From positions 1-45,502 of the IMG/VR virus record IMGVR_UViG_3300010412_000433: a DNA stretch of 45,502 nt. One strand, written 5' to 3'. Numbering within the stretch: the first letter of the stretch is position 1; each line of letters begins with the position of its first letter. The DNA comes from a virus. The position numbers and the translations under genes are program-made. The notes under the pieces were generated by a model. That model did not search any database. It was not told the origin of the DNA and worked only from the letters and a program-made list of their open reading frames with translations. Positions 1 to 40,767 of this stretch are shown one piece after another.

Positions 1-44
1 CCTCCAATATACCCCGCACCACCTATAACCAACACATTATTCAT
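1..44 (-). CDS. NAD-dependent sugar epimerase/dehydratase, N-terminal fragment (cut by window edge)
   Basis: Only the first 14 codons are inside the window. They read MNNVLVIGGAGYIG, the opening beta strand and glycine-rich NAD-binding loop (GxxGxxG, here GGAGYIG) of the extended short-chain dehydrogenase family, to which UDP-glucose 4-epimerase and dTDP-glucose dehydratase belong. The ATG at 44 overlaps the last 8 bases of the preceding glycosyltransferase-like gene, so it is the next gene of the same leftward operon. With the UDP-GlcNAc 2-epimerase two genes upstream it suggests nucleotide-sugar supply. The GYIG ending favours a GalE-like enzyme, but substrate cannot be told from 14 residues. 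Confidence 0.75.
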   Translation of the reverse strand, partial: MNNVLVIGGAGYIG

Positions 45-4959: not shown

Positions 4960-5337
4960 TTAATGGGCCTCAATTGGAATTTTAACAGCTTCTGTTACAG
5001 GCGTGTATTCCATACTCACCTTTAACATGCCATTATCGAACTCAGCCTTTTTTACCTCTAAGTTTGAGTTTACCTTAAAAGCCCTAGCAAAGCTCTTGCT
5101 AGAGATCCCTTTGTGCATCCAAGCAGGCTCTTCCGCAACCTCTTGTTTTTCTCCATTTACTTTCAGTACGCCGTCTTGGAAAGTGATTGAGACTTGTTTA
5201 GGATCCCAACCCGGTAGTGCCATTTCTAGCGAGTAACCGTTCGGTACTTTTCCAATATTGTATCTTGGATAATTCTCCATGCCAAATGGGAGATTGAACA
5301 GGTCATCAATTCCTACAAACACTTTTTCTAAGTTCAT
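4960..5337 (-). CDS. Small heat-shock protein (Hsp20/alpha-crystallin family)
   Basis: A 125-residue ATP-independent holdase chaperone. A short N-terminal arm (VFVGIDDLFNLPFG) resembles the IbpA-like start. The alpha-crystallin domain follows at about residues 24-113, with the A-x-P-G-W/F element (MALPGWDPK), the KVNGEKQE strand and the FxLxxxL-like core; the C-terminal VKIPIEAH gives the I-x-I oligomerisation motif. Phage Hsp20 genes are known in T4-like and cyanophages, where they are thought to help capsid or tail assembly. It is the first gene of the leftward block, has its own promoter at 5428-5457 and a structured 5' UTR (see regulatory entry). Confidence 0.92.
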   Translation of the reverse strand: MNLEKVFVGIDDLFNLPFGMENYPRYNIGKVPNGYSLEMALPGWDPKQVSITFQDGVLKVNGEKQEVAEEPAWMHKGISSKSFARAFKVNSNLEVKKAEFDNGMLKVSMEYTPVTEAVKIPIEAH

Positions 5338-8210: not shown

Positions 8211-8309
8211 AATAAAAAGGATGATTATATGGGCGAAAGATTTTACTTGCAACAACTGGCACGCCTAGGCACATGCGTAGGCTATAAATCAACAAAGAGG
8301 AAAAGAAAG

Positions 8310-8666
8310 ATGGCATGGACAGATGAACGAAAGGCACAAGCGGTCGAAATGTATGAAAAGGCCGAGCCTACTCCAGAGACGAGTATGGAAATCGTAAAGG
8401 AGATTGCTGAAGAGCTTGGTGAAAGTCCAAACGGTGTTCGCATGGTGCTTACGAAGGCTGGCGTATACATTAAGAAGGCTGCAGCTGCTTCCAGCGGTGG
8501 TGCAAAAGCTTCTGGTGGAACGCGCGTGTCAAAGGAAGTTGCCATCAATGGACTTACAGCAGCATTGACGGATGCTGGTCAGGAAGTTGACAATGATATT
8601 GTCAGCAAGCTGACGGGTAAGGCGGCTGTCTACTTCACTGGCGTTATTAACGCGCTTAATAAGTAG
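8310..8666 (+). CDS. Single-repeat Myb/SANT-like HTH protein
   Basis: A 118-residue protein beginning MAWTDERKAQAVEMY, then EIAEELGESPNGVRMVLTKAG: a W-T-x-E-x start, an acidic helix and an I-A-E-x-L-G-x-S-x-x-x-V-R HTH, like a Myb/SANT unit. It matches the first unit of the protein at 12103 (WTEERTSAL ... ERLETSPKSVAAKLRK). An Ala/Gly linker and a helical C-terminal domain (about residues 70-118) follow. GC and codon use are clearly higher than in neighbours. The gene has its own promoter and a strong terminator, suggesting an abundant product. The ATG at 8310 has AGAGG upstream; an in-frame ATG at 8229 with its own weak SD would add a 27-residue basic extension. A DNA-coating or regulatory role is inference. 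Confidence 0.7.
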   Translation: MAWTDERKAQAVEMYEKAEPTPETSMEIVKEIAEELGESPNGVRMVLTKAGVYIKKAAAASSGGAKASGGTRVSKEVAINGLTAALTDAGQEVDNDIVSKLTGKAAVYFTGVINALNK

Positions 8667-12102: not shown

Positions 12103-12831
12103 ATGGGACTTCCAAAGTGGACTGAAGAGCGCACTAGTGCGCTTGTGGATTTTGTAGGAGACGAGTCGCCTGTTTCGTATGCGACCGTTGTTGAAGCTGC
12201 TGAGCGTCTAGAGACTTCTCCGAAGTCTGTGGCTGCAAAGCTGCGTAAGATGGAATATGAGGTTGAATCCTCAGCTGCTGCTGTACATAAGGTTTTCTCG
12301 GACGAGCAGGAAGAAACTCTTCGCGCGTTTGTTGAAGACAACAGTGGTCAGTATACATATGCCGATATTGCTGATGCGTTTGAAGATGGAGCTTTCAGCT
12401 CCAAGCAGATCCAGGGCAAGTTGCTTTCTATGCAGCTCACGGATCATGTGAAGCCAACGCCGAAGCATGAGAATGTTCGTACGTTCTCTGAAAAGGAAGA
12501 GGCTGATTTTGTGGCGATGGCTAATAAGGGTGCTTTCCTTGAAGAAATCGCAGACAAGCTTGGACGCACGATTAATCAGGTGCGTGGAAAGGCGCTGTCG
12601 CTTCTCCGTTCCAAGGAGATCGAGGCCATTCCGAAGCAGCGTGACAGCAAGGGCTCAACTCGCGTTGATCCGCTGGAAGGCGTTGACGTTGGTTCGATGA
12701 CTGTCGCAGAGATTGCGGAGCGAATCGGCAAGACGGAGCGTGGCGTAAAGACGATGCTTACTCGTCGTGGTCTGTCAGCTACAGATTATGACGGTGCGGC
12801 AAAGGCAGAAAAGGCAAAGGCAAACGCCTAA
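12103..12831 (+). CDS. Protein with tandem Myb/SANT-like HTH repeats
   Basis: A 242-residue protein, apparently made of repeated HTH units. The units are at about 6-55 (WTEERTSAL...KSVAAKLRKM), 65-114 (FSDEQEETL...KQIQGKLLSM) and 128-174 (FSEKEEADF...NQVRGKALSL). A shorter unit at 199-224 (MTVAEIAERIGKTERGVKTML) follows, then an Ala/Lys tail. Each has an aromatic plus acidic start, a helix, an I-A-x-x-x-G helix and a V-x-x-K-L recognition-like helix, as in Myb/SANT domains. GC is higher than in flanking genes (one 60-base line counted at 58% versus 33% in the helicase gene). The ATG has GAGG 8 bases upstream; a GAAA-loop terminator follows. Related to the protein at 8310. Function unknown; multivalent DNA binding is inferred. 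Confidence 0.75.
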   Translation: MGLPKWTEERTSALVDFVGDESPVSYATVVEAAERLETSPKSVAAKLRKMEYEVESSAAAVHKVFSDEQEETLRAFVEDNSGQYTYADIADAFEDGAFSSKQIQGKLLSMQLTDHVKPTPKHENVRTFSEKEEADFVAMANKGAFLEEIADKLGRTINQVRGKALSLLRSKEIEAIPKQRDSKGSTRVDPLEGVDVGSMTVAEIAERIGKTERGVKTMLTRRGLSATDYDGAAKAEKAKANA

Positions 12832-22690: not shown

Positions 22691-24487
22691 GTGATTGTAT
22701 TAAAAGATTTAACTTGGAGCAATTGTTTTTCTTATGGCGCAAATAATACACTTAATCTGTCTGAGGAAAGAATTACTCAGATTCTAGGTACAAACGGTGT
22801 TGGGAAGTCATCAATACCTTTAATACTAGAAGAAGTTTTATTTAATAAGAATTCAAAAGGTATTAAGAAGGCGGATATTGCAAACCGCCTTCTCGATGGC
22901 GGCTATTCTATAAATCTTAAGTTTCAAAAAGATGCGGATGAGTACGAAATTGATTTAATTCGTAAAACTACTATTAAAGTACGTTTTTATAAAAATGGCG
23001 AAGATATTAGTAGCCATACTGCAACAAATACCTATAAGACCATTGAAGATGTATTGGGAATAGACTTCAAAACATTTTCACAAGTAGTATATCAAAATGC
23101 AAGCTCTAGCTTGAATTTTTTGACAGCTACAGATAGTAACAGAAAGAAATTCCTTATAGATCTTCTTGGTCTTGAGCAATATGTTAATATTTTTGAAATC
23201 TTTAAAGCAGCTTCTAAAGAAGTTGAAATTGAGTATTCAAAGATAGAGGGTAAGATTTCGTCCATCGAAAAATGGCTCGAAACAAATAAATTGATTGATA
23301 CTACCCCACGGCCCTTAGAAAATTTACCCGAAATATCGGAAAATGACCAGGACCAATTAAGTCATCTTATGGCTGAACTTAAAAATATCTCGGTCACGAA
23401 TCGAAAAATTTCGCAGAATAATAAATATATCGAACTGATAAAAAGTATTGATATTAATAAGATTCGTGAACTACCAGATACAGAGTTTCAATCTTATGAT
23501 GAGCACTTAGCTAAAGTAGGTGAAATAACTTCTACAATTAAGTCCTCTCAGACTATGATTGACAAGCTAGAAAGGTTATCAAATGAATGTCCGACATGTC
23601 AACAGAAAATTACAGAAGATTGGAAAGTTCAACATATTTTCTCAGAACGAAAGAAAGTACAAGAACAAGAAGCGCGAAAAGCAAAAATTGAGGCGCAAAT
23701 CGCGGAGATTCAAAGAAACAATAAAGCATACCAATTAAAGCAACAAAAAACTAAAGAGTGGGAAAGTTTATTCACTCAAATAGATAGATTTCTACCTACC
23801 GCATTAATTGATGAGGAAGAGCTATCACAAAGTATAGCAGAACTAAAACACGCTATAGCTGAACAACAGAAAAAACTTCAAAAGATTGAAAAGTATAATC
23901 AAGAAGCATCAGCTTATAACGCTAGAATTCAAGTAATTTCAGAGCAAACTACAGAGTTTGAAACTGAACTTGCAAATTTACAAAGTACGTATTCTGCGCT
24001 GCAAAATAGACGCGCAAATATGGAGATATTAAAGAAAGCTTTTAGTACAAATGGACTAATAGCATATAAAATAGAGAATCTAGTAAAAGAACTAGAAACT
24101 GTAACAGGAATTTATTTATCTGAATTATCAGATGGACGGTTTACTTTAAACTTCTCTGTTAACAACGATAAGTTAAATGTTGAAATTACAGATAATGGAA
24201 ATGTGGTTGATATTTCAGCCCTCTCTTCTGGAGAGTTGGCACGAGTAAACACAGCCACACTTCTTGGTATTCGTAAACTAATGAATAGTTTATCATCAAA
24301 TCAAATTAATGTTCTATTTCTAGATGAAGTTATGAATGTGTTAGATGAGCAGGGTAGAGAAAAGCTGGTAGAAGTCTTAATTAATGAAGATCTAAATACT
24401 TATATAGTCTCTCATCAGTGGAGTCACCCGCTTCTGGCCAAGATTGAAGTTTGTAAAACAGACGGAATTAGTGAGATTAGTAAGTAA
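22691..24487 (+). CDS. Rad50/SbcC/gp46-like recombination ATPase subunit
   Basis: A 598-residue ABC/SMC-type ATPase. Walker A is GTNGVGKSS (33-41), then a Q-loop (VVYQNASSSLNFL), a coiled-coil arm with a Cys hook NECPTCQQK (C300 and C303), ABC signature LSSGELARVN and Walker B VLFLDEVMNVLD (D545). Long Glu/Lys/Gln-rich stretches around the hook fit a coiled coil. Partner of gp47-like nuclease. I prefer the GTG at 22691, which follows GGAGG at 22678-22682 at 8-base spacing and starts just before the conserved first strand (IVLKDLTWSNCFSYG). An in-frame ATG at 22658 would overlap the upstream gene by 29 bases. Confidence 0.9.
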   Translation: MIVLKDLTWSNCFSYGANNTLNLSEERITQILGTNGVGKSSIPLILEEVLFNKNSKGIKKADIANRLLDGGYSINLKFQKDADEYEIDLIRKTTIKVRFYKNGEDISSHTATNTYKTIEDVLGIDFKTFSQVVYQNASSSLNFLTATDSNRKKFLIDLLGLEQYVNIFEIFKAASKEVEIEYSKIEGKISSIEKWLETNKLIDTTPRPLENLPEISENDQDQLSHLMAELKNISVTNRKISQNNKYIELIKSIDINKIRELPDTEFQSYDEHLAKVGEITSTIKSSQTMIDKLERLSNECPTCQQKITEDWKVQHIFSERKKVQEQEARKAKIEAQIAEIQRNNKAYQLKQQKTKEWESLFTQIDRFLPTALIDEEELSQSIAELKHAIAEQQKKLQKIEKYNQEASAYNARIQVISEQTTEFETELANLQSTYSALQNRRANMEILKKAFSTNGLIAYKIENLVKELETVTGIYLSELSDGRFTLNFSVNNDKLNVEITDNGNVVDISALSSGELARVNTATLLGIRKLMNSLSSNQINVLFLDEVMNVLDEQGREKLVEVLINEDLNTYIVSHQWSHPLLAKIEVCKTDGISEISK

Positions 24488-25164
24488 TGGTAGATTCAAT
24501 ACACTATTTGTACAAAATAACAAACTTAGATAATGGAAAAAGTTATATTGGAGTATCTTTAAATCCAGAAGAACGTTGGAAAGCTCATTTAAATGCTAGA
24601 AAAGATGGTAGTATTGAAATGGCTAAGGATGTCCCATTTAAGTCTAAGTGTGAAATATTAGATAAAGGTTCTGAAGCTTATATTTATAAAAGAGAGATTG
24701 AAGAAATCAAAAACCAAAATACTTTAATACCTAAAGGATATAATATTAGTTTAGGCGGTACAGGATGTTCTGGTAGGCTAGGTAGTAAGCATCCACTATC
24801 AACATTAACAGAAGCAGAAGTTTTAAATATTAGGAATTTATACGCTACCGAAAAATTCACTCAAAAAGAATTAGGTGCTATTTTTAATACTACTTGTTTT
24901 ACTATAAGTAAGATCATACGAGGCGATCGATGGAAACACGTAGCGGGTCCAACTATCAAACAAAATGTAGTTGGAGAATTAAATCCTGCAGCTAAACTTT
25001 CTGAAGAAAAGGTACTTGATATAAGAAAAAAATATGCTACAGGTAAGTTTACTCAAGCACAACTTGGAGCTCTCTACGGGGTGGGTTTCAAAGCTATTAG
25101 TAAAATTATAACTGGGCAAAGGTGGGCTAGTGTAGGGGGCCCAATAAAAGGAAAGGATTACTAA
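24487..25164 (+). CDS. Free-standing GIY-YIG homing endonuclease
   Basis: A 225-residue protein. The N-terminus has YLYKITNLDNGKSYIGVS with the GIY-YIG equivalents YLY and YIG, followed by a conserved Arg helix (PEERWKAHL), the glutamate in the later helix (EAYIYKREIEEIK) and the N-x-x-x-G-G-x-G loop (NISLGGTGCSG). Two copies of a DNA-binding unit follow: LTEAEVLNIRNLYATEKFTQ... KIIRGDRW and LSEEKVLDIRKKYATGKFTQ... KIITGQRW, each a small HTH ending in W. It starts with TAATG overlap with gp46. Such enzymes cleave a related phage at the same place and spread by gene conversion. It breaks up an otherwise normal recombination cluster. Confidence 0.88.
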   Translation: MVDSIHYLYKITNLDNGKSYIGVSLNPEERWKAHLNARKDGSIEMAKDVPFKSKCEILDKGSEAYIYKREIEEIKNQNTLIPKGYNISLGGTGCSGRLGSKHPLSTLTEAEVLNIRNLYATEKFTQKELGAIFNTTCFTISKIIRGDRWKHVAGPTIKQNVVGELNPAAKLSEEKVLDIRKKYATGKFTQAQLGALYGVGFKAISKIITGQRWASVGGPIKGKDY

Positions 25165-28395: not shown

Positions 28396-29406
28396 ATGAA
28401 TATTTCACCAAGAATTGGTATTGTTGATTCTATCTTAAAAGCGGGCGGAGCAATTCGCCCGCTTTTAGTACCTGCAAATCTTACAAATGGAACAGGATTA
28501 TTAAATCCATCTGTATATAATGATAATGGAAAGATATTAGTAAATATTCGACATGTAGGATATACGCTTTATCATAGTGAAGTTGGTCTTTATGAGCATC
28601 AATATGGACCACTTCAATATCTACATCCAGAAAATGATAGACATCTTCGTACATTTAATTTTATAGCTGAATTAGATGATGATTTAAATATTGTAGGACT
28701 TACTAAGGTTAATACGGATAGATTTGATGTAGAACCTAAATGGGAATTTGTTGGTTTAGAAGACTGTCGAGTAGTTCGATGGGATGGCAGACTTTATATT
28801 TGTGGAGTTAGAAGAGATACAACTCCAAATGGTCAGGGACGAATGGAACTTTCTGAACTAAATGAAAAGTATGAAGAAATTTCTCGTTTTCGTATTCCTG
28901 CTCCAGGTCCTGATAGTTCTTATTGTGAAAAGAATTGGATGCCTGTTATAGATATGCCTTATCATTATGTGAAATGGTCTAATCCTACAGAAGTAGTTAA
29001 AGTTGACGTAAATAAAGGAACATGTGAAACCGTCGTTTTAGATGAAAGTAAGTATATATCTAGATCTGCTGATCTTCGTGGAGGTTCTCAAGTAATTCCA
29101 TTTAAAGGTTATCATATAGCTCTCATTCACGAAGTAAATTTATATAATAGTGAGTTAGGTAGAAAGAATGGGCGTTATCGACATAGATTTTTAGTTTGGG
29201 ATAACGATTGGAATTTAATACAAATATCTCCGTTGTTTTCATTTTTAACTGGAGAAATTGAATTTGCTGCTGGTATGGCTGAATATGAGGATGACTTTTT
29301 AATAACTTTTGGTTTTCAAGATAATGCAGCATTTATAGTAAAAGTAAATAAAGATTATCTTTGGGATTTTATTTGGGAGAAAGAAGATGCTTCAGCAAGC
29401 ACTTGA
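28396..29406 (+). CDS. Five-bladed beta-propeller protein, GH43/GH130-like
   Basis: A 336-residue protein. It has alternating strands with conserved blocks LLNPSVYNDNGKILVNIRHV, KWEFVGLEDCRVVRWDGRLYICG and RHRFLVWDN, an arrangement like GH130 mannoside phosphorylases and related GH43-type propellers (N-P-S ... R ... E-D-x-R ... G-x-Y). Catalytic assignment is not possible: homologues in phages and algae-associated bacteria are often only called glycosidase-related. It is the first of two carbohydrate-type genes placed after RNR. The ATG at 28396 follows the RNR stop after one base, preceded by a weak GGA. A strong hairpin spans codons 14-24 (see terminator). Confidence 0.55.
   Translation: MNISPRIGIVDSILKAGGAIRPLLVPANLTNGTGLLNPSVYNDNGKILVNIRHVGYTLYHSEVGLYEHQYGPLQYLHPENDRHLRTFNFIAELDDDLNIVGLTKVNTDRFDVEPKWEFVGLEDCRVVRWDGRLYICGVRRDTTPNGQGRMELSELNEKYEEISRFRIPAPGPDSSYCEKNWMPVIDMPYHYVKWSNPTEVVKVDVNKGTCETVVLDESKYISRSADLRGGSQVIPFKGYHIALIHEVNLYNSELGRKNGRYRHRFLVWDNDWNLIQISPLFSFLTGEIEFAAGMAEYEDDFLITFGFQDNAAFIVKVNKDYLWDFIWEKEDASAST
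28437..28466 (+). terminator. Terminator-like hairpin inside the 5' coding region of the propeller gene
   Basis: AAAAGCGGGCG / CGCCCGCTTTT, an 11-bp perfect stem with an 8-base loop (GAGCAATT), ending in a short U-run (TTTTAG). It begins about 43 bases past the RNR stop. The codons AAA GCG GGC GGA ... CGC CCG CTT are GC-rich in an AT-rich gene. Whether it terminates RNR mRNA or attenuates the next gene depends on ribosome coverage. Confidence 0.7.
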
Positions 29407-30613
29407 AGAATATGCATCATGTCCGTTTGATCCGGAATTAAACTATAATCTTGCTAGAATATATGATAGTATAGAACAATCTGCAGCTGCAGTATCATTT
29501 TATCTTCGTGCTGCGGAAAAAACTAGAAATAAGGTTCTTGCTTATGAGTGTTTATTGCATTTAGCTAGGTGTTTTCTTGTTCAAGGAGACCGTCGAGGAA
29601 CTGCTAAAGGTTTAATGAAACATGCTATTAGTATTCTTCCTTATCGTCCTGAAGCATATCACCGTATAAGTGTGTATTATGAAAATGAAAAAGATTGGCA
29701 AAATTCATATATGTATGCTTGTATGGGACTTGCACATATAAATAATAACTATCCTCCACTTAAAAATTCTGTACAATATGATGGTGAACAAGGGTTATTA
29801 TTTCAAAAAGGTGTCGCTTGTTGGTGGATTGGCTTAACTCATCAAGCTCGTTTAATAATGCGAGATTTAAAAGATAAATATACTTTGACTCCAGTCTACG
29901 AAAGAGCAGTTGATAGAAATATACAAAATATTGGCTATCCTAATGAGATAGTTCCAGTATATTATGCTGATCAAGCTAAACGATTTAAATATCCTTTTCC
30001 TGGAATAGAAAAAATTTCTCGTAACTATGCTCAATCATATCAAGATATGTTTGTTTTAGCTGTATTAGAGGGTAAAGAATATGGCACTTATTTAGAATTG
30101 GGAAGTGCTCATGGTATTAAAAATAGTAATACCGCATTATTGGAATTGAATTTTAATTGGACAGGCTTATCTATTGACGAAAGCGAAGAATTTGTGGCAG
30201 ATTTTGTAAATAATCGAAAAAATACTGTTGTTTGTGCAGATGCTTTAAAGGTAGATTATACTGAGTTACTGCATGGTTTATCCTTGGGTCCAGTAATTGA
30301 CTACTTACAAATAGATTTAGATCCACCAGAAATAACATTAGATGCGCTTTACAAAATACCTTTTGATGAGTTTAGTTTTAAAGTAATTACTTTTGAACAT
30401 GATTTTTATAGAAATGGTATAGTACGAAATGAATCTAGAAAATATTTGAAAGAAAAAGGCTACATACTATTAATTAGCGATGTAGCCTTTGAAGATACAA
30501 ATAGCTTTGAAGATTGGTGGATTCATCCAAAACTTATTGATTCTAAAATAATTAGTAAGTTTAAAAATGTATCGGATGATCCTAAAGATCCACGAGATTT
30601 TTTATTTAATTAA
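29387..30613 (+). CDS. TPR domain-FkbM methyltransferase fusion
   Basis: A 408-residue protein. The N-terminal half is a TPR-like helical region (LQQALEEYASCPFDPELNYNL ... SFYLRAAEKTRNK ... LMKHAISILPYRPEAYHRIS), and the C-terminal half, from about residue 208, is an FkbM-type methyltransferase: QSYQDMFVLAVLEGKEYGTY, LELGSAHGI (SAM motif) and GLSIDESEEF, later DYLQIDLDPPE. FkbM enzymes O-methylate sugars or polyketides. The TPR part could bind a protein partner or glycan carrier. It overlaps the propeller gene by 20 bases and its last 4 bases overlap the convergent structural gene. An intrinsic terminator for the opposite strand lies in its 3' part. Confidence 0.72.
   Translation: MLQQALEEYASCPFDPELNYNLARIYDSIEQSAAAVSFYLRAAEKTRNKVLAYECLLHLARCFLVQGDRRGTAKGLMKHAISILPYRPEAYHRISVYYENEKDWQNSYMYACMGLAHINNNYPPLKNSVQYDGEQGLLFQKGVACWWIGLTHQARLIMRDLKDKYTLTPVYERAVDRNIQNIGYPNEIVPVYYADQAKRFKYPFPGIEKISRNYAQSYQDMFVLAVLEGKEYGTYLELGSAHGIKNSNTALLELNFNWTGLSIDESEEFVADFVNNRKNTVVCADALKVDYTELLHGLSLGPVIDYLQIDLDPPEITLDALYKIPFDEFSFKVITFEHDFYRNGIVRNESRKYLKEKGYILLISDVAFEDTNSFEDWWIHPKLIDSKIISKFKNVSDDPKDPRDFLFN
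30455..30490 (-). terminator. Leftward intrinsic terminator inside the convergent TPR-FkbM gene
   Basis: An 11-bp perfect stem (ATGTAGCCTTT / AAAGGCTACAT) with a 14-base loop. Read leftward, three U pairs continue into TTTTTCTTTC, a U-rich tail. It is about 120 bases past the stop of the last leftward structural gene (30610). In the rightward direction the tail is GAAGAT, so it is a good terminator only for the leftward transcript. Confidence 0.72.
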
Positions 30614-31215
30614 GTACAGAAATAATATAGTGAACCTTCAAATGTACTAATTGCCGCAGGTGGTTGTAGATAAAAGCTTGCTGTATCTTTTGCACAAGTT
30701 ATATCATATCCAGAAGTTTTTGATTGACTTGCTGTATACCAGACTTCGCAGCAAACAATATCTCCTGCTTGTGTAGATTGCGACGCACCAGTCCAAGTAT
30801 AGCTTGTTGGAGATTCTGTACCAGTAAACTCGTTTCCAATTGTTGTTGCAGCGTCATAAATATAGCCAACTAAGCCACTTCCAGGTCTCCATACATATAA
30901 AGATATTGCAAGATAAGCATTACAACCGTTATTGCCTTCAGTAAAACCACCACTCAGAGTCCATGTTCCAGAACTAATAGTTTGAGCAGCAAGCGCAGGT
31001 GTTGAAAATGTTGCAAAACGTGCAGATTGTGGCGAAGTCTGCCCTAAGCTAGTTATGGTAATAGGCGTATTACCAGTATTGTTAGTAGTACCTAATGAAT
31101 ATGAGTCATTAGAAGCACTGTTATCTGATCCATCTGGTAACGCAGTAGATTGTGATCCTGTTGGATAATTAGCTGCTGTATCACTATTTAAGTAAAATGT
31201 TGTAATTGAGGCCAT
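30610..31215 (-). CDS. Putative virion/tail-fibre protein
   Basis: A 201-residue Ser/Thr/Gly-rich protein with beta-like segments (SGTWTLSGGFTEG, AYLAISLYVWRPGSG, AGDIVCCEVWYTASQ), the composition of phage fibre or baseplate accessory domains. No catalytic motif. The ATG at 31215 follows a strong GGAGGG and overlaps the upstream stop by TAATG. Last gene of the leftward late operon; its stop overlaps the convergent rightward gene by two bases and the terminator lies beyond, in that gene. Confidence 0.7.
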   Translation of the reverse strand: MASITTFYLNSDTAANYPTGSQSTALPDGSDNSASNDSYSLGTTNNTGNTPITITSLGQTSPQSARFATFSTPALAAQTISSGTWTLSGGFTEGNNGCNAYLAISLYVWRPGSGLVGYIYDAATTIGNEFTGTESPTSYTWTGASQSTQAGDIVCCEVWYTASQSKTSGYDITCAKDTASFYLQPPAAISTFEGSLYYFCT

Positions 31216-31568
31216 TATAACCACCCTCCAGTATAGGTACATTTCTCTATACTGTTTACTAGATCTGGCGTTACTACAATATCGCCTCTATCGGCGTAAT
31301 TAACTTCTACACAGGCACCGGGGATGCCTGGCTCAGCTACCCACTTTAGAATTCGAGTCCAGTAATCTATTTCTTTAGTCACAGGATGCATTCGTTTTGT
31401 AGTGTGCTCATAAGTTTCATTTAATACAAAAGGCTTTGGAATCGTTTCACAAAGTCCACATTGATTACAGTATCCTTTTATCCACCACTTTTTGCCAACA
31501 GTATTCTCATAGTAGACAGTATCACCGTCTACTTTAGTAACCCAAGTAGTATAATCAACTGTTTCCAT
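31215..31568 (-). CDS. Hypothetical protein with Cys-rich CNQCGLC motif
   Basis: A 117-residue protein. YCNQCGLCETIPKPFV (about residues 33-48) has three closely spaced cysteines and a fourth later, resembling a small metal- or disulfide-binding knuckle, and is otherwise beta-rich (VDGDTVYYENTVGKKWWIKG). Located between two structural genes, coupled by TAATG with its downstream neighbour. Could be a fibre assembly or capping factor; no family recognised. Confidence 0.6.
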   Translation of the reverse strand: METVDYTTWVTKVDGDTVYYENTVGKKWWIKGYCNQCGLCETIPKPFVLNETYEHTTKRMHPVTKEIDYWTRILKWVAEPGIPGACVEVNYADRGDIVVTPDLVNSIEKCTYTGGWL

Positions 31569-31569
31569 A

Positions 31570-32298
31570 TTAGAACTCTAAGCTAACTGTGAACATATTT
31601 ACAGTACCACTAGTTGCTGAAGTAGTTACCCATACCCACGTATTAGCGGATATTGTTGTACTATTAATAGTTGGTGCTGTGCCGCTAGTTGTACTAGTTA
31701 CAGTTTGACCATTAATATTTGTAGTAGTTGCGCTACTTCTATCGGAACCACTAAGTACCGAATATGTTACACTAGGTGTCGATCCTACACAAACTGCCCT
31801 CGCAGATGAAATAGTAAGAGCTGACGTCGTATAAAACATTGTAACATTTTCAGATGTAGTTGGATTAGCAATACTGATTGAACGTGGTGAAGAATCTCCC
31901 TGTGTACCAGTTGTACCTTGCAGTCCTTGAACACTTTGTAGTCCTTGAATTCCTTGAGTACCTTGTGTGCCTGTACTACCTTGAGTACCAGTTGCGCCTT
32001 GCGTACCTGCTCCAGTTGTACCTTGAATACCATCAGTACCTTGCGTACCTTGCGTACCTGTTCCAGTTGTACCTTGAATACCATCAGTACCTTGAGTACC
32101 TGTAGCACCTTGAGTACCTTGAGTACCTTGAGCTCCACTTCCATCAGGTCCTTGTATACCATAGGTACCTTGAATACCTTGAACACCTTGAACGCCTAGG
32201 CCTGATGTTCTCCAGGCTGTTCCATCCCATGTATATGTTACAGCACCCACCACATGGGTATCATCTGGTGATGGTGAGTCTGGAAAATTAATAGCCAT
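31570..32298 (-). CDS. Collagen-like fibre protein (short)
   Basis: A 242-residue protein. The first 33 residues (INFPDSPSPDDTHVVGAV, TYTWDGTAWRTSG) are a conserved fibre-start motif seen in other phage collagen-like proteins, with T-W-D-G-x-A-W. Collagen-like G-x-Q/G-x-T triplets follow at about 34-137 (GVQGIQG, GATGTQGTDGIQG). A beta-rich C-terminal knob (about 138-242) completes it. Such proteins trimerise. The ATG at 32298 has a weak SD. Immediately downstream of the GC-rich gene. Confidence 0.75.
   Translation of the reverse strand: MAINFPDSPSPDDTHVVGAVTYTWDGTAWRTSGLGVQGVQGIQGTYGIQGPDGSGAQGTQGTQGATGTQGTDGIQGTTGTGTQGTQGTDGIQGTTGAGTQGATGTQGSTGTQGTQGIQGLQSVQGLQGTTGTQGDSSPRSISIANPTTSENVTMFYTTSALTISSARAVCVGSTPSVTYSVLSGSDRSSATTTNINGQTVTSTTSGTAPTINSTTISANTWVWVTTSATSGTVNMFTVSLEF
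31900..32200 (-). repeat. Collagen-coding triplet repeat (short fibre)
   Basis: G-x-y codons, dominated by G-T-Q, G-T-T, G-I-Q and G-A-T, give a 9- and 18-base periodicity (for example GGTACTCAAGGT-like units on the coding strand). All frames stay open here because of the periodic composition, giving false ORFs. Confidence 0.85.
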
Positions 32299-32319
32299 TT
32301 TATATTCCTCTAAACTTGG

Positions 32320-33024
32320 TTAATACGTATAACCGAAACTTTTTGGGCCTGGGCCCGTACCAGCAGGTGCGAAGGCGAGGATCAGGATGGTAGACCAGTC
32401 GTTCGACCCGGAGCCGTTCGACTGCGTGGTCCCCTCGGCGAACTTGTACGACAGGCGCGCGTCCTGATTCTCGAATAAGGTGTTTGTCTCGTCGTAATAG
32501 ACGATGTTGATGTAATTCTCAGGATCTTCCAACAACGTCGGCTCGGTGGTGCCCGTATCGAACCCGCAGTCGTGAAACAGCAGGAACGTCTCGCCGTTGG
32601 TCAGCCCGGAAATCGAGATGGTCGGCTCGGACCCGTCGTAGCCGTCGCCCTGCCACGTCACCACGTCGCTCGTCGTGTCCACGCCCTTCAGGTAGCACAC
32701 CACGCTGCTGATGCCCTCGGACTGCGCGCTGTCCATCGTGATCTGGATGTTCTGCGACCCGGTAGTCGGACTCATCCAGATGGCGGCGCAGTTGCAAGGC
32801 GAGTTGCCGGTGAAGTTGGGTTTCTCGTGGTAGTAGTCGCGCGAACCGTCCGTCGATAGCGTCGCGGTGTTGACCCCATCATCGTTGCTGCTGTTGTAGC
32901 CCGCTACGAACAGGACCACGCAGTCGCAGTCGCTCGGAATCGTGATGCCAATGGCCGAAGGATTCTGCGCGGCATCCCAATTCAGTACCTCATACGAGGT
33001 CGGACTGCATAGCGAGACTGCCAT
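32320..33024 (-). CDS. GC-rich putative structural protein (foreign composition)
   Basis: A 234-residue Thr/Ser/Asp/Gly-rich protein with regular beta segments (CDCVVLFVAGYNSSNDDG, ISSVVCYLKGVD, ETFLLFHDCGFD, STILILAFAPAGTGPG). This looks like a receptor-binding or fibre-tip domain; no catalytic motif. Base composition is abruptly different: the line at 32641 is 41/60 G+C, that at 33061 in the next gene 23/60. Starts and ends coincide with gene borders (TGATG overlap at 33024). Likely a recently acquired module; protein-level resemblance to known adhesins was not recognisable. Confidence 0.75.
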   Translation of the reverse strand: MAVSLCSPTSYEVLNWDAAQNPSAIGITIPSDCDCVVLFVAGYNSSNDDGVNTATLSTDGSRDYYHEKPNFTGNSPCNCAAIWMSPTTGSQNIQITMDSAQSEGISSVVCYLKGVDTTSDVVTWQGDGYDGSEPTISISGLTNGETFLLFHDCGFDTGTTEPTLLEDPENYINIVYYDETNTLFENQDARLSYKFAEGTTQSNGSGSNDWSTILILAFAPAGTGPGPKSFGYTY

Positions 33025-33470
33025 CAGACCACCGCGTCGGCTATAGCTTGTAAATTAGTGATATGTGTTGCTAAAATACCTGCACTAAATTGTCGAGGAG
33101 TTAAAGAAGCATCTGACTCCAGCGTATAAATTAATGCGTAAGTACCATCATCAGGCACAGCTGCAATTAATGCATTAAATGCTGTTTGACAAAGAGTACG
33201 TAATGCATTAAACTCTGCAACAACGTCATAACTACCGTCATTTTCATACTCTTGTGCATAAGCAACAATACCAGGCGTTGCAGCAACACTTGCAAAACTA
33301 TCGTCTGCTCTTTTTATTTCGAGTAATACACGTAAAATTTCATCAACATTTGCACCACTAACAGCCCAATTAGTGGCTGCATTTTGTGCAATTGTTTGAA
33401 GCTTAAGTGCTGTGTTCTTTCCTACAGTTAATGCATTAGGAGCGAGAACATTTGATGCCTTTAAAGCCAT
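33024..33470 (-). CDS. Hypothetical structural-operon protein
   Basis: A 148-residue mostly helical protein (MALKASNVLAPNALTVGKN, ALRTLCQTAFNALIAAVPDDG, LATHITNLQAIADAVV). It lies between the collagen giant and the GC-rich gene, coupled to the latter by a TGATG overlap. Not recognised; no membrane segment. It resembles small helical proteins often found between tail-fibre genes, perhaps an assembly or connector protein. Confidence 0.6.
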   Translation of the reverse strand: MALKASNVLAPNALTVGKNTALKLQTIAQNAATNWAVSGANVDEILRVLLEIKRADDSFASVAATPGIVAYAQEYENDGSYDVVAEFNALRTLCQTAFNALIAAVPDDGTYALIYTLESDASLTPRQFSAGILATHITNLQAIADAVV

Positions 33471-33481
33471 TATTTATCTCC

Positions 33482-36400
33482 TTATAATGTTACTTTCATA
33501 GTTACCGTAACTCGTGTTACTGTAGTTGCGGAATCTACGTTAAATTCTAATATGTCTCCAGCACTTAATGAAGTTGTCCAAGTCGTTAAACTCGTATCTT
33601 GATTTTTTCTAGCCGAAGAAAGTGTTGGTTTTTCAGATCCAGCTATTGTAGAAGTTGTTGGAAAACCTGAATAAGTTGATCTCTTAACATCTACTACAAT
33701 ACTTCCTGTCTGATCTGCAACAATTGTCCAGTCTGCAACTGTGCAAGCAAATGGAACTGCTAAATATCCCTTAGAACCAGTTGTAATTGCAGAACCACCG
33801 CCATCAATTACATAAGTAAGTGCTTTTGTTGATGCACCTGTAGTACCTTGAGTACCTGTAGTACCTTGAGTACCTTGTGTACCAGAACCTGTAGTACCTT
33901 GTGTGCCTTGTGTACCATTTGTTCCTTGCGAACCAGTTGTTCCTTGCGATCCTGTAGTACCTTGCGATCCTGTAGTACCTTGAGTACCAGTTGTTCCCTG
34001 TGATCCTGTAGTACCTTGTGTACCATCAGTACCTTGCGATCCTGTAGTACCTTGCGATCCTGTAGTACCTTGAGTACCAGTTGCACCTTGTGAACCAGTT
34101 GTTCCCTGTGATCCTGTAGTACCTTGTGATCCTGTAGTACCTTGCGATCCTGTAGTACCTTGCGATCCTGTAGTACCTTGAGTACCAGTTGCACCTTGAG
34201 TTCCTGCTCCAGTTGTACCTTGAATACCATCAGTACCTTGCGAACCAGTTGTACCTTGAGTACCAGTAGCGCCTTGAGTACCTGCTCCAGTTGTACCTTG
34301 TAGTCCTGTTGGTCCTTGTAATCCTGTAGGGGCCGCTTCAACCCACTGTGAGCTACTACCATCGGCGTAGTAGATCATTAACCGACCATTTACACTATCC
34401 CACCATAAGTCTCCAGGATCTGGAGAACCTGGAGGTGAATCCCCTACAGATACTGAAGCTCCACCGGCACCGCCATCCGTACCTTGTACTCCTTGTGTAC
34501 CGTCTGTACCTTGAGTACCTGACCCAGTAGTACCTTGCGTGCCTTGAGTGCCTGACCCAGTAGTACCTTGCGTGCCTTGTGTACCATCTGTACCTTGAGT
34601 ACCTGTTGTACCTTGCGATCCTGTAGTACCTTGTGTACCATCAGTACCTTGTGATCCTGTTGTTCCCTGCGAACCTGTAGTACCTTGTGTACCAGTTGTT
34701 CCTTGCGATCCTGTAGTACCTTGCGATCCTGTAGTACCTTGCGATCCTGTAGTACCTTGTGAACCAGTTGTTCCTTGTGTACCAGTTGTTCCTTGTGATC
34801 CTGTAGTACCTTGTACTCCTTGAATTCCTTGAATACCTTGTGCGCCATCAGCACCAACTCCACCAGAAACAATAGCAAAGTTATTAAATTGTACTCTAAT
34901 ATTTGTTAATTGTGCGTAATGAGTTGATGTAGATAAGTTACTCTTTGCATTATAAGTAAATCGAGCAACTGTAATAAGTTCTTGAGGAGACATATCGCCC
35001 CAATTAATAGAACTAATTTCTTCAGCGGTAGCTGCTGCTTCAGAATCATGGGCTGCTTGTCCGGGAACTAAGAAATATCTCTTAGTTGGATCAATTTCAG
35101 TTGTGGCACATAACCACATATTCACCCATTGACCAGAACCAGCAGTATTTACAGCAGTTTTTTGCCAAGCTGATCCTGTATATTGATTGTAACAAAGAGT
35201 AGTACCATTTGTTAAGAAAGGCACACCTTTTGCATCACCAAAAGTAGAAGTTTGAACTGCCCATTCACCAACTGTATTATTACGGTAAACAACTCGATAT
35301 GTGCCGCCATCTGTAATAGTATTAGTATCTAATTCAATATCTTCGTCTAAAACTCTTACATATGATGCTCCCCAAGTTACAGAATCTGTTGTATCTGAAT
35401 TGAGAGAATATCCAGTTATAGAAGGTAATCCTGGAACGGATGAAATTCTTGTTCCATCTCCAAAGTGTAAACGACTATGTAGTTCCGGATCACGATCTGC
35501 TGTATGAAGCTCCATTAATGCGAATGTAGCATCATTATCTGTAGCATTATATACTATAGAGGCTACAGGTGCATGTTTTAGCAAATTCCAAGCAGTAGTA
35601 GATGTGGTTAAAGCACCAGTTTCATCATAATAAATAAAGTACCCATCACTTGTATCTGCGTGTGCAGTAGATACTTGAGCGCCTGATTTTGTACGTTTTA
35701 CGCCTCCGGTATATACAACAAACTCAGCAGGTGAATTAAGCGGTGTAATAGTTAATTGACGATTTGCACCACTATAAGAAAGTGAAACCTCATAGCCAGT
35801 ATCTGGATCATACGGAAAACCTATACGAGTTTTCTTTGTATCTAGAACATCTTGATCTGCTGCTCCGGTAGTACCTTGTGAACCAGTTGTTCCTTGTACA
35901 CCTTGAGTACCATCAGTACCTTGTGAACCAGTTGTTCCCTGCGACCCTGTTGTACCTTGAGTACCTGTTGTACCTTGCGATCCTGTAGTACCTTGTGAAC
36001 CAGTTGTTCCTTGTGTACCATCAGTACCTTGTGATCCTGTTGTTCCCTGCGATCCTGTAGTACCTTGTGATCCTGTAGTACCTTGTGATCCTGTAGTACC
36101 TTGTGAACCAGTTGTGCCCTGTGAACCAGTGGTTCCTTGAGTTCCAGTAGCGCCTTGAGTACCTGCTCCAGTTGTACCTTGAATACCATCAGTACCTTGC
36201 GAACCAGTTGTACCTTGAGTACCAGTAGCGCCTTGAGTACCTGCTCCAGTAGTACCTTGAATACCAGTATCACCTTGAATACCGTCAGTGCCTTGAGTTC
36301 CCTGAGTACCTGCTCCAGTAGTACCTTGAATACCAGTATCACCTTGAATACCATCAGTACCTTGAGTTCCCTGTGTACCTGCTCCAGTAGTACCTTGAAT

Positions 36401-39007
36401 ACCAGTATCACCTTGAATACCGTCAGTGCCTTGTGAACCAGTTGTTCCCTGTGAACCAGTTGTTCCCTGTGAACCAGTTGTTCCCTGTGACCCTGTTGTT
36501 CCCTGTGACCCTGTTGTGCCTTGAGTACCTGTTGCACCTTGTGAACCAGTTGTTCCTTGTGTACCATCAGTACCTTGCGATCCTGTAGTACCTTGTGAAC
36601 CAGTTGTTCCTTGTGTACCATCAGTACCTTGTGATCCTGTTGTTCCCTGCGAACCTGTAGTACCTTGCGATCCTGTAGTACCTTGCGATCCTGTAGTACC
36701 TTGTGAACCAGTTGTGCCCTGTGAACCAGTGGTTCCTTGTATACCATCAGTACCTTGTGAACCAGTTGTTCCTTGTGATCCTGTAGTACCTTGTGATCCT
36801 GTAGTACCTTGAGTACCAGTTGCGCCTTGAGTACCTTGAGTTCCTGATCCAGTTGTACCTTGTGATCCTGTAGTACCTTGAGTACCTGTAGCACCTTGTG
36901 TACCTGCTCCAGTAGTACCTTGTGAACCTGTTGGTCCTTGTAATCCTGTAGGGGCCGCTTCAACCCATTGTGAGCTAGTACCATCATCGTAGTAAACCAT
37001 TAAACGGCCATTTACGCTATCCCACCATAAATCTCCTGGATCAGTTGGAGATCCTGGAACACTATCAGATACTGTTACAGAGGCTCCACCTCCGGAACCA
37101 TCTGCACCTTGTGTTCCAGTAGTACCCTGAGTTCCCTGTGTACCTGCTCCAGTAGTACCTTGAATACCAGTATCACCTTGAATACCGTCAGTACCTTGAG
37201 TTCCCTGAGTACCTGCTCCAGTAGTACCTTGAATACCAGTATCACCTTGAATACCATCAGTACCTTGTGAACCTGTAGTACCTTGTGAACCAGTTGTGCC
37301 CTGTGAACCAGTTGTGCCCTGTGAACCAGTTGTGCCCTGTGAACCAGTTGTGCCCTGTGAACCAGTTGTGCCTTGAATACCTTGAGCACCTGTAGTACCT
37401 TGAGTACCGTCGGCACCTTGAGTACCTGTTGCACCTTGTGAACCAGTAGTACCCTGTGCGCCAGTAGTACCTTGAGCACCTGTTGCTCCAGGAGTACCTC
37501 CTAAATTTACATCCCACGCAGCATAAGTTCCAGATCCAGTAGTAGTACTAACATTAATAGATATTGCACCTGAGCCTGAGTTATAAGATATAACCAAACC
37601 TTCCATAGAGTTGTCAATATCATAAGCGACAATTACAGTTTGACCTGGAGAATATGCTAAACCTGTATCTACAGTAAGATTTAACGTTCCTGTTTGTATT
37701 GTGCGAGAATCTGTAGATGTAGTAGAATAAATATCTCCTTCAGTACCTTGAGTACCAGTTGTACCTTGAGCGCCAGTAGTACCTTGAGCGCCTGTTGTAC
37801 CTTGTGTACCATCAGCACCTTGAGTACCAGTTGTGCCTTGTGAACCAGTTGTGCCTTGTGAACCAGTTGTTCCCTGCGACCCTGTTGTACCTTGAGTACC
37901 ATCAGCGCCTTGAGTACCAGTTGTGCCTTGTGAACCAGTTGTGCCTTGGGAACCAGTTGTGCCTTGAGTACCGTCAGCACCTTGAGTACCTGTTGTGCCT
38001 TGAGAACCAGTTGTACCCTGTGCGCCAGTAGTACCTTGAGTACCAGTAGTACCTTGAGTACCTGTTGCACCCTGTGAACCAGTTGTACCTTGTGATCCTG
38101 TAGTACCCTGTGCGCCAGTAGTACCTTGGGTACCATCAGCACCTTGAGTACCTGTTGCACCCTGTGAACCAGTTGTTCCTTGTGATCCTGTAGTACCCTG
38201 TGCGCCAGTAGTACCTTGAGTACCTGTTGCACCTTGAGTACCTGTTGCACCTTGTGAACCAGTTGTGCCTTGTGAACCAGTTGTGCCCTGTGAACCAGTT
38301 GTGCCTTGAGTACCGTCAGCACCTTGAGTACCTGTTGTGCCTTGAGAACCAGTTGTGCCCTGTGAACCAATTGTACCCTGTGATCCTGTAGTACCTTGAA
38401 TACCATCAGCACCTTGAGTACCTGTTGCACCCTGTGAACCAGTTATACCCTGTGCGCCAGTAGTACCTTGAGTACCATCAGCGCCTTGAATACCATCAAC
38501 ACCTTGAGTACCAGTAGTACCTTGAGCACCAGTAGTACCTTGAGCACCAGTAGTACCTTGAGTACCATCAGCGCCTTGAATACCAGTTATGCCTTGAACA
38601 CCTTGAGCACCATCCGCGCCAATAGCACCGCCTAAATTTACATCCCAATCAGCATAAACACCACTACCAGTAATAGAAGCAATATCAGCAATCATAGCTC
38701 CAGTAGCTGGATTATAAGAGCTAACATCGCCTTCCATATAATTAAGTTCATCATAGGCGATAACAACTGACTGGCCTGCTGTATAAGCTAGGCCAGTTTC
38801 AACTGTAAGGTTTTGAATACCGGTAGCAATCGTTAAAGAAGTAGTTGATGTTGTTGCATAACGATCGCCAATTGTGCCTTGAAGTCCTTGAATACCTTGA
38901 ACTCCAACAGTAGGCAAAGCTAAGTTATTAACTTCAATAGTATTTGTAACGGCTTGTAAAGTTACTGTTGTACCGTTAGTTTCAGTAACGTCAATAATAT
39001 AAGTCAT
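33482..39007 (-). CDS. Giant collagen-like tail-fibre protein, 1841 residues
   Basis: A very long fibre. About 1,100 residues are collagen-like G-x-y repeats in blocks at roughly residues 126-424, 503-640, 686-1049, 1383-1510 and 1560-1725 (GTTGSQGTTGTQ hexads and variants). Between them are globular inserts: two copies of a beta domain (about 45-125 and 424-502, sharing NLTV-x-TGLAY and AWDVNLGG-like endings), two copies of a GDLWWDSVNGRLM module (640-686, 1510-1559), a large central domain (about 1049-1382) and a C-terminal knob (1725-1841, ending VTRVTVTMKVTL). The repeats lack proline. The ATG at 39007 overlaps the upstream stop by ATGA. Probably a trimeric long fibre carrying host-recognition domains; direct repeats make it prone to length change. 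Confidence 0.85.
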   Translation of the reverse strand: MTYIIDVTETNGTTVTLQAVTNTIEVNNLALPTVGVQGIQGLQGTIGDRYATTSTTSLTIATGIQNLTVETGLAYTAGQSVVIAYDELNYMEGDVSSYNPATGAMIADIASITGSGVYADWDVNLGGAIGADGAQGVQGITGIQGADGTQGTTGAQGTTGAQGTTGTQGVDGIQGADGTQGTTGAQGITGSQGATGTQGADGIQGTTGSQGTIGSQGTTGSQGTTGTQGADGTQGTTGSQGTTGSQGTTGSQGATGTQGATGTQGTTGAQGTTGSQGTTGSQGATGTQGADGTQGTTGAQGTTGSQGTTGSQGATGTQGTTGTQGTTGAQGTTGSQGTTGTQGADGTQGTTGSQGTTGSQGTTGTQGADGTQGTTGSQGTTGSQGTTGSQGTTGTQGADGTQGTTGAQGTTGAQGTTGTQGTEGDIYSTTSTDSRTIQTGTLNLTVDTGLAYSPGQTVIVAYDIDNSMEGLVISYNSGSGAISINVSTTTGSGTYAAWDVNLGGTPGATGAQGTTGAQGTTGSQGATGTQGADGTQGTTGAQGIQGTTGSQGTTGSQGTTGSQGTTGSQGTTGSQGTTGSQGTDGIQGDTGIQGTTGAGTQGTQGTDGIQGDTGIQGTTGAGTQGTQGTTGTQGADGSGGGASVTVSDSVPGSPTDPGDLWWDSVNGRLMVYYDDGTSSQWVEAAPTGLQGPTGSQGTTGAGTQGATGTQGTTGSQGTTGSGTQGTQGATGTQGTTGSQGTTGSQGTTGSQGTDGIQGTTGSQGTTGSQGTTGSQGTTGSQGTTGSQGTTGSQGTDGTQGTTGSQGTTGSQGTDGTQGTTGSQGATGTQGTTGSQGTTGSQGTTGSQGTTGSQGTTGSQGTDGIQGDTGIQGTTGAGTQGTQGTDGIQGDTGIQGTTGAGTQGTQGTDGIQGDTGIQGTTGAGTQGATGTQGTTGSQGTDGIQGTTGAGTQGATGTQGTTGSQGTTGSQGTTGSQGTTGSQGTTGSQGTTGSQGTDGTQGTTGSQGTTGSQGTTGTQGTTGSQGTTGSQGTDGTQGVQGTTGSQGTTGAADQDVLDTKKTRIGFPYDPDTGYEVSLSYSGANRQLTITPLNSPAEFVVYTGGVKRTKSGAQVSTAHADTSDGYFIYYDETGALTTSTTAWNLLKHAPVASIVYNATDNDATFALMELHTADRDPELHSRLHFGDGTRISSVPGLPSITGYSLNSDTTDSVTWGASYVRVLDEDIELDTNTITDGGTYRVVYRNNTVGEWAVQTSTFGDAKGVPFLTNGTTLCYNQYTGSAWQKTAVNTAGSGQWVNMWLCATTEIDPTKRYFLVPGQAAHDSEAAATAEEISSINWGDMSPQELITVARFTYNAKSNLSTSTHYAQLTNIRVQFNNFAIVSGGVGADGAQGIQGIQGVQGTTGSQGTTGTQGTTGSQGTTGSQGTTGSQGTTGSQGTTGTQGTTGSQGTTGSQGTDGTQGTTGSQGTTGTQGTDGTQGTQGTTGSGTQGTQGTTGSGTQGTDGTQGVQGTDGGAGGASVSVGDSPPGSPDPGDLWWDSVNGRLMIYYADGSSSQWVEAAPTGLQGPTGLQGTTGAGTQGATGTQGTTGSQGTDGIQGTTGAGTQGATGTQGTTGSQGTTGSQGTTGSQGTTGSQGTTGSQGATGTQGTTGSQGTTGSQGTDGTQGTTGSQGTTGTQGTTGSQGTTGSQGTTGSQGTNGTQGTQGTTGSGTQGTQGTTGTQGTTGASTKALTYVIDGGGSAITTGSKGYLAVPFACTVADWTIVADQTGSIVVDVKRSTYSGFPTTSTIAGSEKPTLSSARKNQDTSLTTWTTSLSAGDILEFNVDSATTVTRVTVTMKVTL
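33835..34325 (-). repeat. Collagen-coding repeat block 5 of giant fibre
   Basis: Imperfect 18-base units coding alternating G-T-T and G-S-Q/G-T-Q. Some units are identical at DNA level, offering recombination targets. Confidence 0.9.
34480..34855 (-). repeat. Collagen-coding repeat block 4 of giant fibre
   Basis: Same hexad type, between the central globular domain and the second GDLWWDSVNGRLM module, with one GTGT-like irregular stretch (GSGTQ) near 34540. Confidence 0.9.
35860..36945 (-). repeat. Collagen-coding repeat block 3 of giant fibre (longest)
   Basis: The longest repeat block, about 1.1 kb, mixing GTTGSQ, GADGTQ/GTDGIQ and GDTGIQ units. Three copies of a longer GTDGIQGDTGIQGTTG-like unit occur in tandem near 36230-36430. 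Confidence 0.9.
37090..37495 (-). repeat. Collagen-coding repeat block 2 of giant fibre
   Basis: Between the second beta-domain copy and the first GDLWWDSVNGRLM module. A run of five near-identical 18-base units (GTTGSQ) sits at about 37270-37370. Confidence 0.9.
37740..38630 (-). repeat. Collagen-coding repeat block 1 of giant fibre
   Basis: About 890 bases of G-x-y triplets with more GAD/GAT units than the later blocks; lies between the two copies of the beta domain. Confidence 0.9.
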
Positions 39008-39348
39008 CTAGTAACTTCTTGTTTCACTCGTGCTTTGCCTTCAATTAATCTCTTTACATATCCATCTCCTGCGGTATAAACTTCAAGATCATAGTAATAC
39101 GTTCCAGCCGTCATTGCGGTAGAAATTGCATTTGCCAATGTCATTGTAATCTGTCCGTCTGTAGGCGGACTACCTATTTCGCAGGTAAAAGATGCAGAAA
39201 GAATAGTAGAGTCTTTTTTCGGACGAAGCTGAGCCCTGGCGCTATAGCCTGTTAAATCGAGTGGATCACCAACGGAGTCCTTAACAGTTATTCCTAAGGA
39301 ATAATCCGAGCCTTGATCTATTGTAATATCGTAAGTTCCTGCAGTCAT
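39004..39348 (-). CDS. Beta-sandwich tail/baseplate protein (BppU-like N-domain)
   Basis: A 114-residue protein. TYDITIDQGSDYSLGITVKDS, DPLDLTGYSARAQLRPKKDS and TYYYDLEVYTAGDGYVKRLIEGKARV form the repeated pattern of a phage Ig-like beta sandwich, common as a baseplate or fibre-attachment domain (BppU N-terminal family). It is first in the operon from the promoter at 39423-39451, with about 70 bases of leader containing a TGAGC/GCTCA hairpin, and is coupled to the giant fibre by ATGA. It probably connects the fibre to the tail. Confidence 0.78.
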   Translation of the reverse strand: MTAGTYDITIDQGSDYSLGITVKDSVGDPLDLTGYSARAQLRPKKDSTILSASFTCEIGSPPTDGQITMTLANAISTAMTAGTYYYDLEVYTAGDGYVKRLIEGKARVKQEVTR

Positions 39349-39781: not shown

Positions 39782-40390
39782 CTATAAATTTTCTTCCCAA
39801 GGATGATAACTTCCAGGTTTGATATAGTCAATAGCTGCTGCTACACCTTTATCTGAAAAGTTAAGCCAAGAACGAATTGATTCTACTTGTTCTTCTGGGT
39901 TCTGTATTAGTTTTTCGTATGATAACTGAAAAACAGGAAATTCTTTAGAAACTATGTTTACTGAGTGAATACGAGAGGGAAGTTCTTTTGTAATTAAATG
40001 AGTCATAGTTTTTTCAAAAGTCGGTAATATTATATCAGGTACATTTTCTGCAGCTTTTAAAGTTAATTTAAATCGATGATCCGCAATACTATATGGATCT
40101 CTCCAAATATGCACAAGACCTGGATTTTTTAATCTTTTCATAGCTTGAAGTAATTTACTAGCATCTCTAGAATACCAAGGATGTTTTACGCCCCAAGAAG
40201 TATAATTTTCTCTAATTTGAGATAATATTATTTCAAATTCATACCAATTATTATTTCTTACTGCTCTTATTAATGTTGGCTCTTCGTTATACTCATTAGC
40301 ATTAGGAAATGATAATCCTAAATGACGAATAACTCCAGCTATAGCTGTAGTACCACCTCTTCCACATCCTGTTATAATTAACTCGTTCAT
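39782..40390 (-). CDS. Sulfotransferase-like P-loop protein
   Basis: A 202-residue protein beginning LIITGCGRGGTTAIAGVIR, the 5'-phosphosulfate-binding loop (G-x-x-R-x-G-T-T/S) of PAPS-dependent sulfotransferases, followed by GVKHPW and LVHIWRDPYSI, the 3'-phosphate-binding R-D-P motif. Later QLSYEKLIQNPEEQV is the L-x-Y-E-x-L segment. The core is shorter than in eukaryotic enzymes (usually over 250 residues). The ATG at 40390 overlaps the upstream stop by ATGA. It is inside the fibre operon and may sulfate a glycan or tyrosine on virion proteins. Confidence 0.78.
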   Translation of the reverse strand: MNELIITGCGRGGTTAIAGVIRHLGLSFPNANEYNEEPTLIRAVRNNNWYEFEIILSQIRENYTSWGVKHPWYSRDASKLLQAMKRLKNPGLVHIWRDPYSIADHRFKLTLKAAENVPDIILPTFEKTMTHLITKELPSRIHSVNIVSKEFPVFQLSYEKLIQNPEEQVESIRSWLNFSDKGVAAAIDYIKPGSYHPWEENL

Positions 40391-40767
40391 GAAAATGTTA
40401 TATCTCCAGATGTTACCCAAGAAGCAGGTAATACATTATACCAATTAAACATAGTACGAGTACCATTCCAACTACCACTTGAAAGGCTTTTACTGCCTAC
40501 TCCCGGAATAGTGACTGTAGAAAAGGGAGGTGTTCCACTCCAATTTCCGTATACTGCAAAGTATAAATCTCTTTGAGTTCCAGGATAAATTTCATACATA
40601 TAACACTCAGCAAGTGCTGCACCTGCAACTGTTCCAGTTGCAGTACCAATAGTATAATCGTAATCTGAAAAACCTCTTACTTCTTCGTATGTAGAAGGAA
40701 AATCTATTCCAGCTGTAATAGTATATAAACCACTATCATTAGCAGCGCATAAAAGTACTTGACTCAT
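40387..40767 (-). CDS. Putative fibre accessory protein
   Basis: A 126-residue protein (MSQVLLCAANDSGLYTITAG to DITFS), beta-rich, with Gly/Ser/Thr and aromatic residues (FAVYGNWSGTPPFST), typical of small phage tail proteins. It follows the giant neighbour with a TAATG overlap and precedes the sulfotransferase-like gene by ATGA. The start at 40767 is chosen over the in-frame ATG at 40797 because of the overlap. Function unknown. Confidence 0.65.
   Translation of the reverse strand: MSQVLLCAANDSGLYTITAGIDFPSTYEEVRGFSDYDYTIGTATGTVAGAALAECYMYEIYPGTQRDLYFAVYGNWSGTPPFSTVTIPGVGSKSLSSGSWNGTRTMFNWYNVLPASWVTSGDITFS

Follow-up and report, generated by a model that had tools for sequence, protein, structure and literature searches.

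The Gene Cluster and Its Phage

The window, by which we mean the whole 45.5-kb stretch of virus DNA that was analyzed, has a G+C content of 37%. A single GC-rich gene encoding a 234-aa protein lies in its tail gene cluster between collagen-like fiber genes, with an LtfC-like gene nearby (Table 1). The virus is an AT-rich phage whose replication genes are T5-like. Its DNA polymerase shares 44% identity, across the full length of the protein, with those of T5-like phages and is about 70% identical to those of uncultured contigs. The fiber cluster also contains a sulfotransferase-like gene (39782–40420; Pfam Sulfotransfer_3, 6.6e-7), and a gene pair at 28396–30613, encoding a 336-aa protein without a Pfam family and a 408-aa tetratricopeptide repeat (TPR)-containing protein, is found together in nearly 80 contigs of environmental phages, frequently next to fiber or tail genes. 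Elsewhere in the window are a block of six adjacent small genes resembling glycan-making genes (37–4366), including a UDP-N-acetylglucosamine 2-epimerase (936–1994; Pfam, 5e-66) and a possible family-90 glycosyltransferase, a gene for an Hsp20-type small heat-shock protein (4960–5337), and an ORF (24487–25164) whose start (LYKITNLDNGKSYIGVS) resembles a GIY-YIG homing endonuclease.

Table 1. Principal features of the locus, in window coordinates
Feature	Position	Strand	Basis
T5-like DNA polymerase, used for phage placement	15855..18116	+	Homology
Downstream collagen-like tail-fiber gene, 242 aa, GC3 0.16	31570..32298	-	phrog_819 tail protein, 1.1e-22; Pfam Collagen
GC-rich gene, 234 aa, encoding a divergent stand-alone beta-sandwich domain of the minor-tail-protein type	32320..33024	-	GC3, profile score, model fold
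Compositionally foreign segment, about 671 bp, GC 0.599	32371..33041	-	Change points in GC3; segment of highest codon likelihood
Upstream gene, 148 aa, resident composition; last five codons and stop foreign	33024..33470	-	Composition; no confident family
Large collagen-like fiber gene, 1841 aa, GC3 0.14	33482..39007	-	Repeated GTQG-type triplets in the translation
LtfC-like (L-shaped tail-fiber assembly) protein	39004..39348	-	phrog_1084, 8.4e-30; phrog_3304, 1.2e-16

Base Composition and Codon Usage of the GC-Rich Gene

A preliminary description of this DNA had pointed to an abrupt GC-rich gene within the AT-rich fiber cluster, and the counts that it gave are exact: 41 of 60 nucleotides are G or C at 32641–32700 and 23 of 60 at 33061–33120. 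The G+C content of the gene is 0.589, with values of 0.47, 0.48, and 0.81 at the first, second, and third codon positions (GC1, GC2, and GC3), and its GC3 contrasts with the 0.14 to 0.30 found in the other genes of the cluster (30610–39007). Outside the segment no 600-nt stretch of the virus record exceeds a G+C content of 0.52, and the observed/expected ratio of CpG is 1.30 in the segment versus 0.68 in the window as a whole. Among 1,377 nonoverlapping ORFs of at least 150 aa, taken from 127 AT-rich loci originally fetched for other purposes, the gene is the top GC3 outlier, standing 0.60 above the median of its locus (the SD for all ORFs is 0.052).

Scans of GC content and codon usage show the island to be real and sharply bounded. 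With a high-GC codon model trained on other GC-rich loci, the gene itself being left out, its codon log-likelihood ratio is 227 nats, and the runner-up gene in the window reaches 51. That runner-up (12103–12831; GC 0.51, GC3 0.49), which encodes a D5-like transcriptional regulator, and a DNA-binding protein gene at 8229–8666 (GC 0.48, GC3 0.45) rank next in GC content among the genes of the window, and both match phrog_323. The codon usage of the GC-rich gene does not correlate with that of its own genome (r = −0.08); it agrees best with GC-rich loci, including three that carry the domain described below (L183, r = 0.87; L200, r = 0.83; and L185, r = 0.81), and fits phage loci of 60 to 68% GC.

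Borders of the Foreign Segment

The change in composition had been placed at the gene borders, and it does fall near them but not exactly on them. One GC3 change point is at 33039 (interval about 33036–33042), inside the five codons that end the upstream gene, the 3′ end of which reads ...ATA / GCC GAC GCG GTG GTC TGA, with the left border after ATA; the other is at 32371 (about 32368–32374), 16 codons ahead of the GC-rich gene's own stop. The ORF is intact, and, as had been described, its frame overlaps that of its neighbor: the stop of the upstream gene and the start of the GC-rich gene share 1 nt in a TGATG at 33024. Because the change points enclose the overlap, it lies inside the foreign DNA and probably arrived with it. 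On compositional grounds, the simplest reading is that the insert brought the overlap rather than that the overlap was preserved by luck, and its position inside the insert implies that a donor coding sequence in the same frame lay just upstream. A search of the segment borders for flanking repeats that could mark site-specific insertion found none. An imperfect palindrome (32316–32337) spans the last resident codons and the stop of the GC-rich gene, near the right border.

A Divergent Stand-Alone Minor-Tail-Protein Domain

The 234-aa protein has no match in PHROGs (up to an E value of 10), Pfam, NCBIfam, or the PDB, and no close homolog at ordinary sensitivity in phages, plasmids, IMG/VR viral contigs, or GTDB genomes. 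Homology searching yielded no close relative but did yield a remote membership. The sequence resembles a domain present in phage and environmental proteins. A consensus written for that domain served only as a lead, and the 234-aa protein was always scored with real sequences. The consensus matched the minor tail proteins of phrog_553 and phrog_2106 and pointed the way to real viral, bacterial, and archaeal examples. Against an iterated family profile of 18 remote domain matches, from which the query was left out, the 234-aa protein scores 28.2 bits over residues 79–223 (envelope 15–224); the best of 2,000 shuffled sequences scores 16.0 bits and the other window proteins score at most 3.2 bits. 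Eight of the 14 alignment members match phrog_2106 and seven match phrog_553, and the pairwise identity of the protein with individual relatives is 11 to 21%. The 234-aa protein belongs to the phrog_553/2106 beta-sandwich domain as a divergent member that stands alone. Two tblastn matches with E values of 5 to 9 were judged to be chance: one to Cosmo gp43, a short alignment, and one to Aeromonas phage AS2, on the strand opposite to the annotated AS2 gene.

A structure model made from the single sequence was useless (pLDDT 37, pTM 0.34). With 13 relatives supplied as an alignment, the model improved to a pLDDT of 64 and a pTM of 0.69, with 16 strands and no helix, and a Foldseek search of viral models with it gave matches at a probability of 1.00 to similarly sized phage proteins and to minor tail proteins from phages of Mycobacterium and Gordonia; fold and sequence searches of the PDB with the 234-aa protein gave no credible match. 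Since family members formed the alignment behind the model, this support is partly circular, and the predicted all-beta fold, which is like that of the minor-tail family, is partly alignment dependent.

Like the phrog_553/2106 proteins, for example Mycobacterium phage Cosmo gp44 and a 210-aa minor tail protein of Tonenili, the window protein combines the remote profile match and the predicted all-beta fold with a similar length, a GC-rich phage composition, and a place in a structural gene cluster. Unlike those members, which come from actinophages and others, it is too divergent for a direct PHROG match, is found in an AT-rich T5-like phage, and is cysteine-rich: it has seven or so cysteines and two CxC motifs (CDC 33–35 and CNC 76–78), unusual for a tail domain, and the cysteines could form disulfides or a metal site. 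In other families, tail-tip domains are known to bind host glycans, as in the BppU and central fiber of Douge (PMC13033339) and the BppU of Claus (PMC13252515). Identity of the 234-aa domain with the Douge BppU glycan-binding module was rejected, as the score of Douge gp23 against the family profile is −0.2 bits and the protein belongs to phrog_3856. Because the Douge domain is of a different family, glycan binding can be proposed for the window protein only by analogy, and it possibly binds glycans.

Related Phages and Other Copies of the Domain

Among 96 phage records related to the window by their DNA polymerase or by the gene at 28396, no credible member of the domain family was found; many of these records are fragments and none is a near relative spanning the exact site, and four family-bearing records added as positive controls gave a signal. 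A single related record (G014) gave a match to the family, below threshold with an E value of 0.0011; it covers a short stretch containing stop codons and was set aside. In L207, the relative whose LtfC match is best, the genes that follow LtfC are different. Searches with three neighboring genes (148, 117, and 210 aa) found no relatives, and comparison at the exact site therefore failed.

Stand-alone, one-domain proteins of 220 to 250 aa, several starting with MA[IV], are encoded in other viral contigs (L185/L195, L196/L197, L198, and L200), where, like the window gene, they sit in structural clusters behind a fiber gene or a small structural gene. In L200 (62% GC), the domain gene has a GC3 of 0.81 and a 1-nt overlap, both as in the window. 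The composition of each of these genes equals that of its own contig within a few percent, whereas the window gene differs from its genome. The cellular examples found have the domain within long proteins of moderate GC (domain GC 0.43–0.51), whereas the stand-alone GC-rich copies found are in viral contigs.

A Parallel Case in an Unrelated Phage

Ranking second among the outliers of the control set is a 276-aa gene (8919–9749 of L059) with a GC3 of 0.71 versus 0.20, encoded in an AT-rich 122-kb contig, and its product matches the virion structural protein phrog_10356. Like the window gene with its TGATG, it overlaps the stop of a small upstream gene by 1 nt (TAATG); its cluster includes a collagen-like gene that is similar at the N terminus to window gene 31570, and the GC-rich gene is followed by homologs of window genes 28396 and 29387. 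The two GC-rich proteins are unrelated to each other and so are the phages, L059 having no match to the window DNA polymerase. This suggests that the uptake of GC-rich genes in fiber clusters may recur, although two cases make no rule. A more general idea, that fiber clusters of AT-rich environmental phages hold a slot behind a small structural gene with a 1-nt overlap, into which single GC-rich surface-domain genes are repeatedly acquired, we regard as unlikely but worth stating. If it were true, the overlap would travel with the gene, so that a newcomer would be translated at once without a ribosome-binding site of its own, the slot genes would come from phages of GC-rich bacteria, and two such acquisitions, independent and with unrelated domains, would have been caught in the window and L059.

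Origin of the GC-Rich Gene

Foreign origin of the gene from a GC-rich source is strongly supported. The preliminary description had suggested a high-GC phage or host as the source, which the codon usage bears out, and of the two a phage is the likelier donor because the domain family occurs in GC-rich phages and codon usage correlates at 0.81 to 0.87 with GC-rich loci versus −0.08 with the resident genome. The arrival had also been proposed to be recent, in agreement with the lack of any drift toward resident codon usage. A composition typical of GC-rich viruses, together with a domain common in phages of GC-rich bacteria, therefore makes recent acquisition from such a phage very probable, although no close homolog identifying the donor was found in the phages, plasmids, viral contigs, and GTDB genomes searched. 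The full account that we favor, and consider probable, is that of a virion gene recently acquired by recombination from a GC-rich phage, translated by coupling, and encoding a tail-fiber product. A GC-rich phage (roughly 60–68% GC) would have supplied about 670 bp by recombination within the structural genes, comprising the stand-alone beta-sandwich minor-tail-protein domain, the extreme 3′ end of the gene ahead of it in the donor, and the TGATG overlap. The gene would then be translated by coupling to the small structural gene upstream, and its product would join the tail-fiber apparatus of the virion, probably as an accessory domain that is exposed at the surface, in contact with the host, and possibly glycan binding. 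Receptor binding by the protein is plausible, and the host-range change envisaged in the preliminary description is possible.

Transfer from a GC-rich bacterial chromosome or a prophage, rather than from a free phage, is the rival that survives best, and we think it rather improbable. The domain does occur in bacterial and archaeal proteins, but the cellular copies found are embedded in long proteins at moderate GC, and the stand-alone GC-rich copies found are viral; a prophage and a phage source cannot be separated. An assembly chimera, in which part of a GC-rich genome was built into the contig, is very unlikely. The island is indeed known from a single contig, in an arrangement without a second copy, but a chimera needs two independent false joins within 671 bp, and the ORF is open across both borders, with a frame and strand that fit and a structural cluster that suits it. 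The same kind of island in a second assembly, that of L059, further lowers the chance of an artifact. Least credible of all, with no specific point in its favor, is that the gene was not transferred recently but is an old resident whose high GC has been maintained by selection, for example on codons favored for expression. Against it, the changes in GC3 and CpG lie within genes, the other fiber genes of the cluster stay at low GC3, and the codon usage is that of GC-rich genomes.

Significance for Tail-Fiber Evolution

Exchange of tail-fiber genes between unrelated phages is well established, and recent acquisition from a GC-rich phage would resemble it as a mosaic acquisition in the host-recognition region. 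The window case differs from the known exchanges in that a single gene is involved, its borders can be set to a few codons, and the overlap seems to have been transferred with it. The kind of event is thus already known, and what is new is this member of the domain family and the cleanness of its borders. The border within the upstream gene suggests that a coupled start arrives with the insert. With a GC3 some 0.6 away from that of its genome, the gene is an unusually clean case that would give a direct view of a domain crossing between phages whose hosts differ greatly in GC content, and it adds a T5-like environmental phage to the range of a minor-tail-protein domain that has been known chiefly from actinophages.
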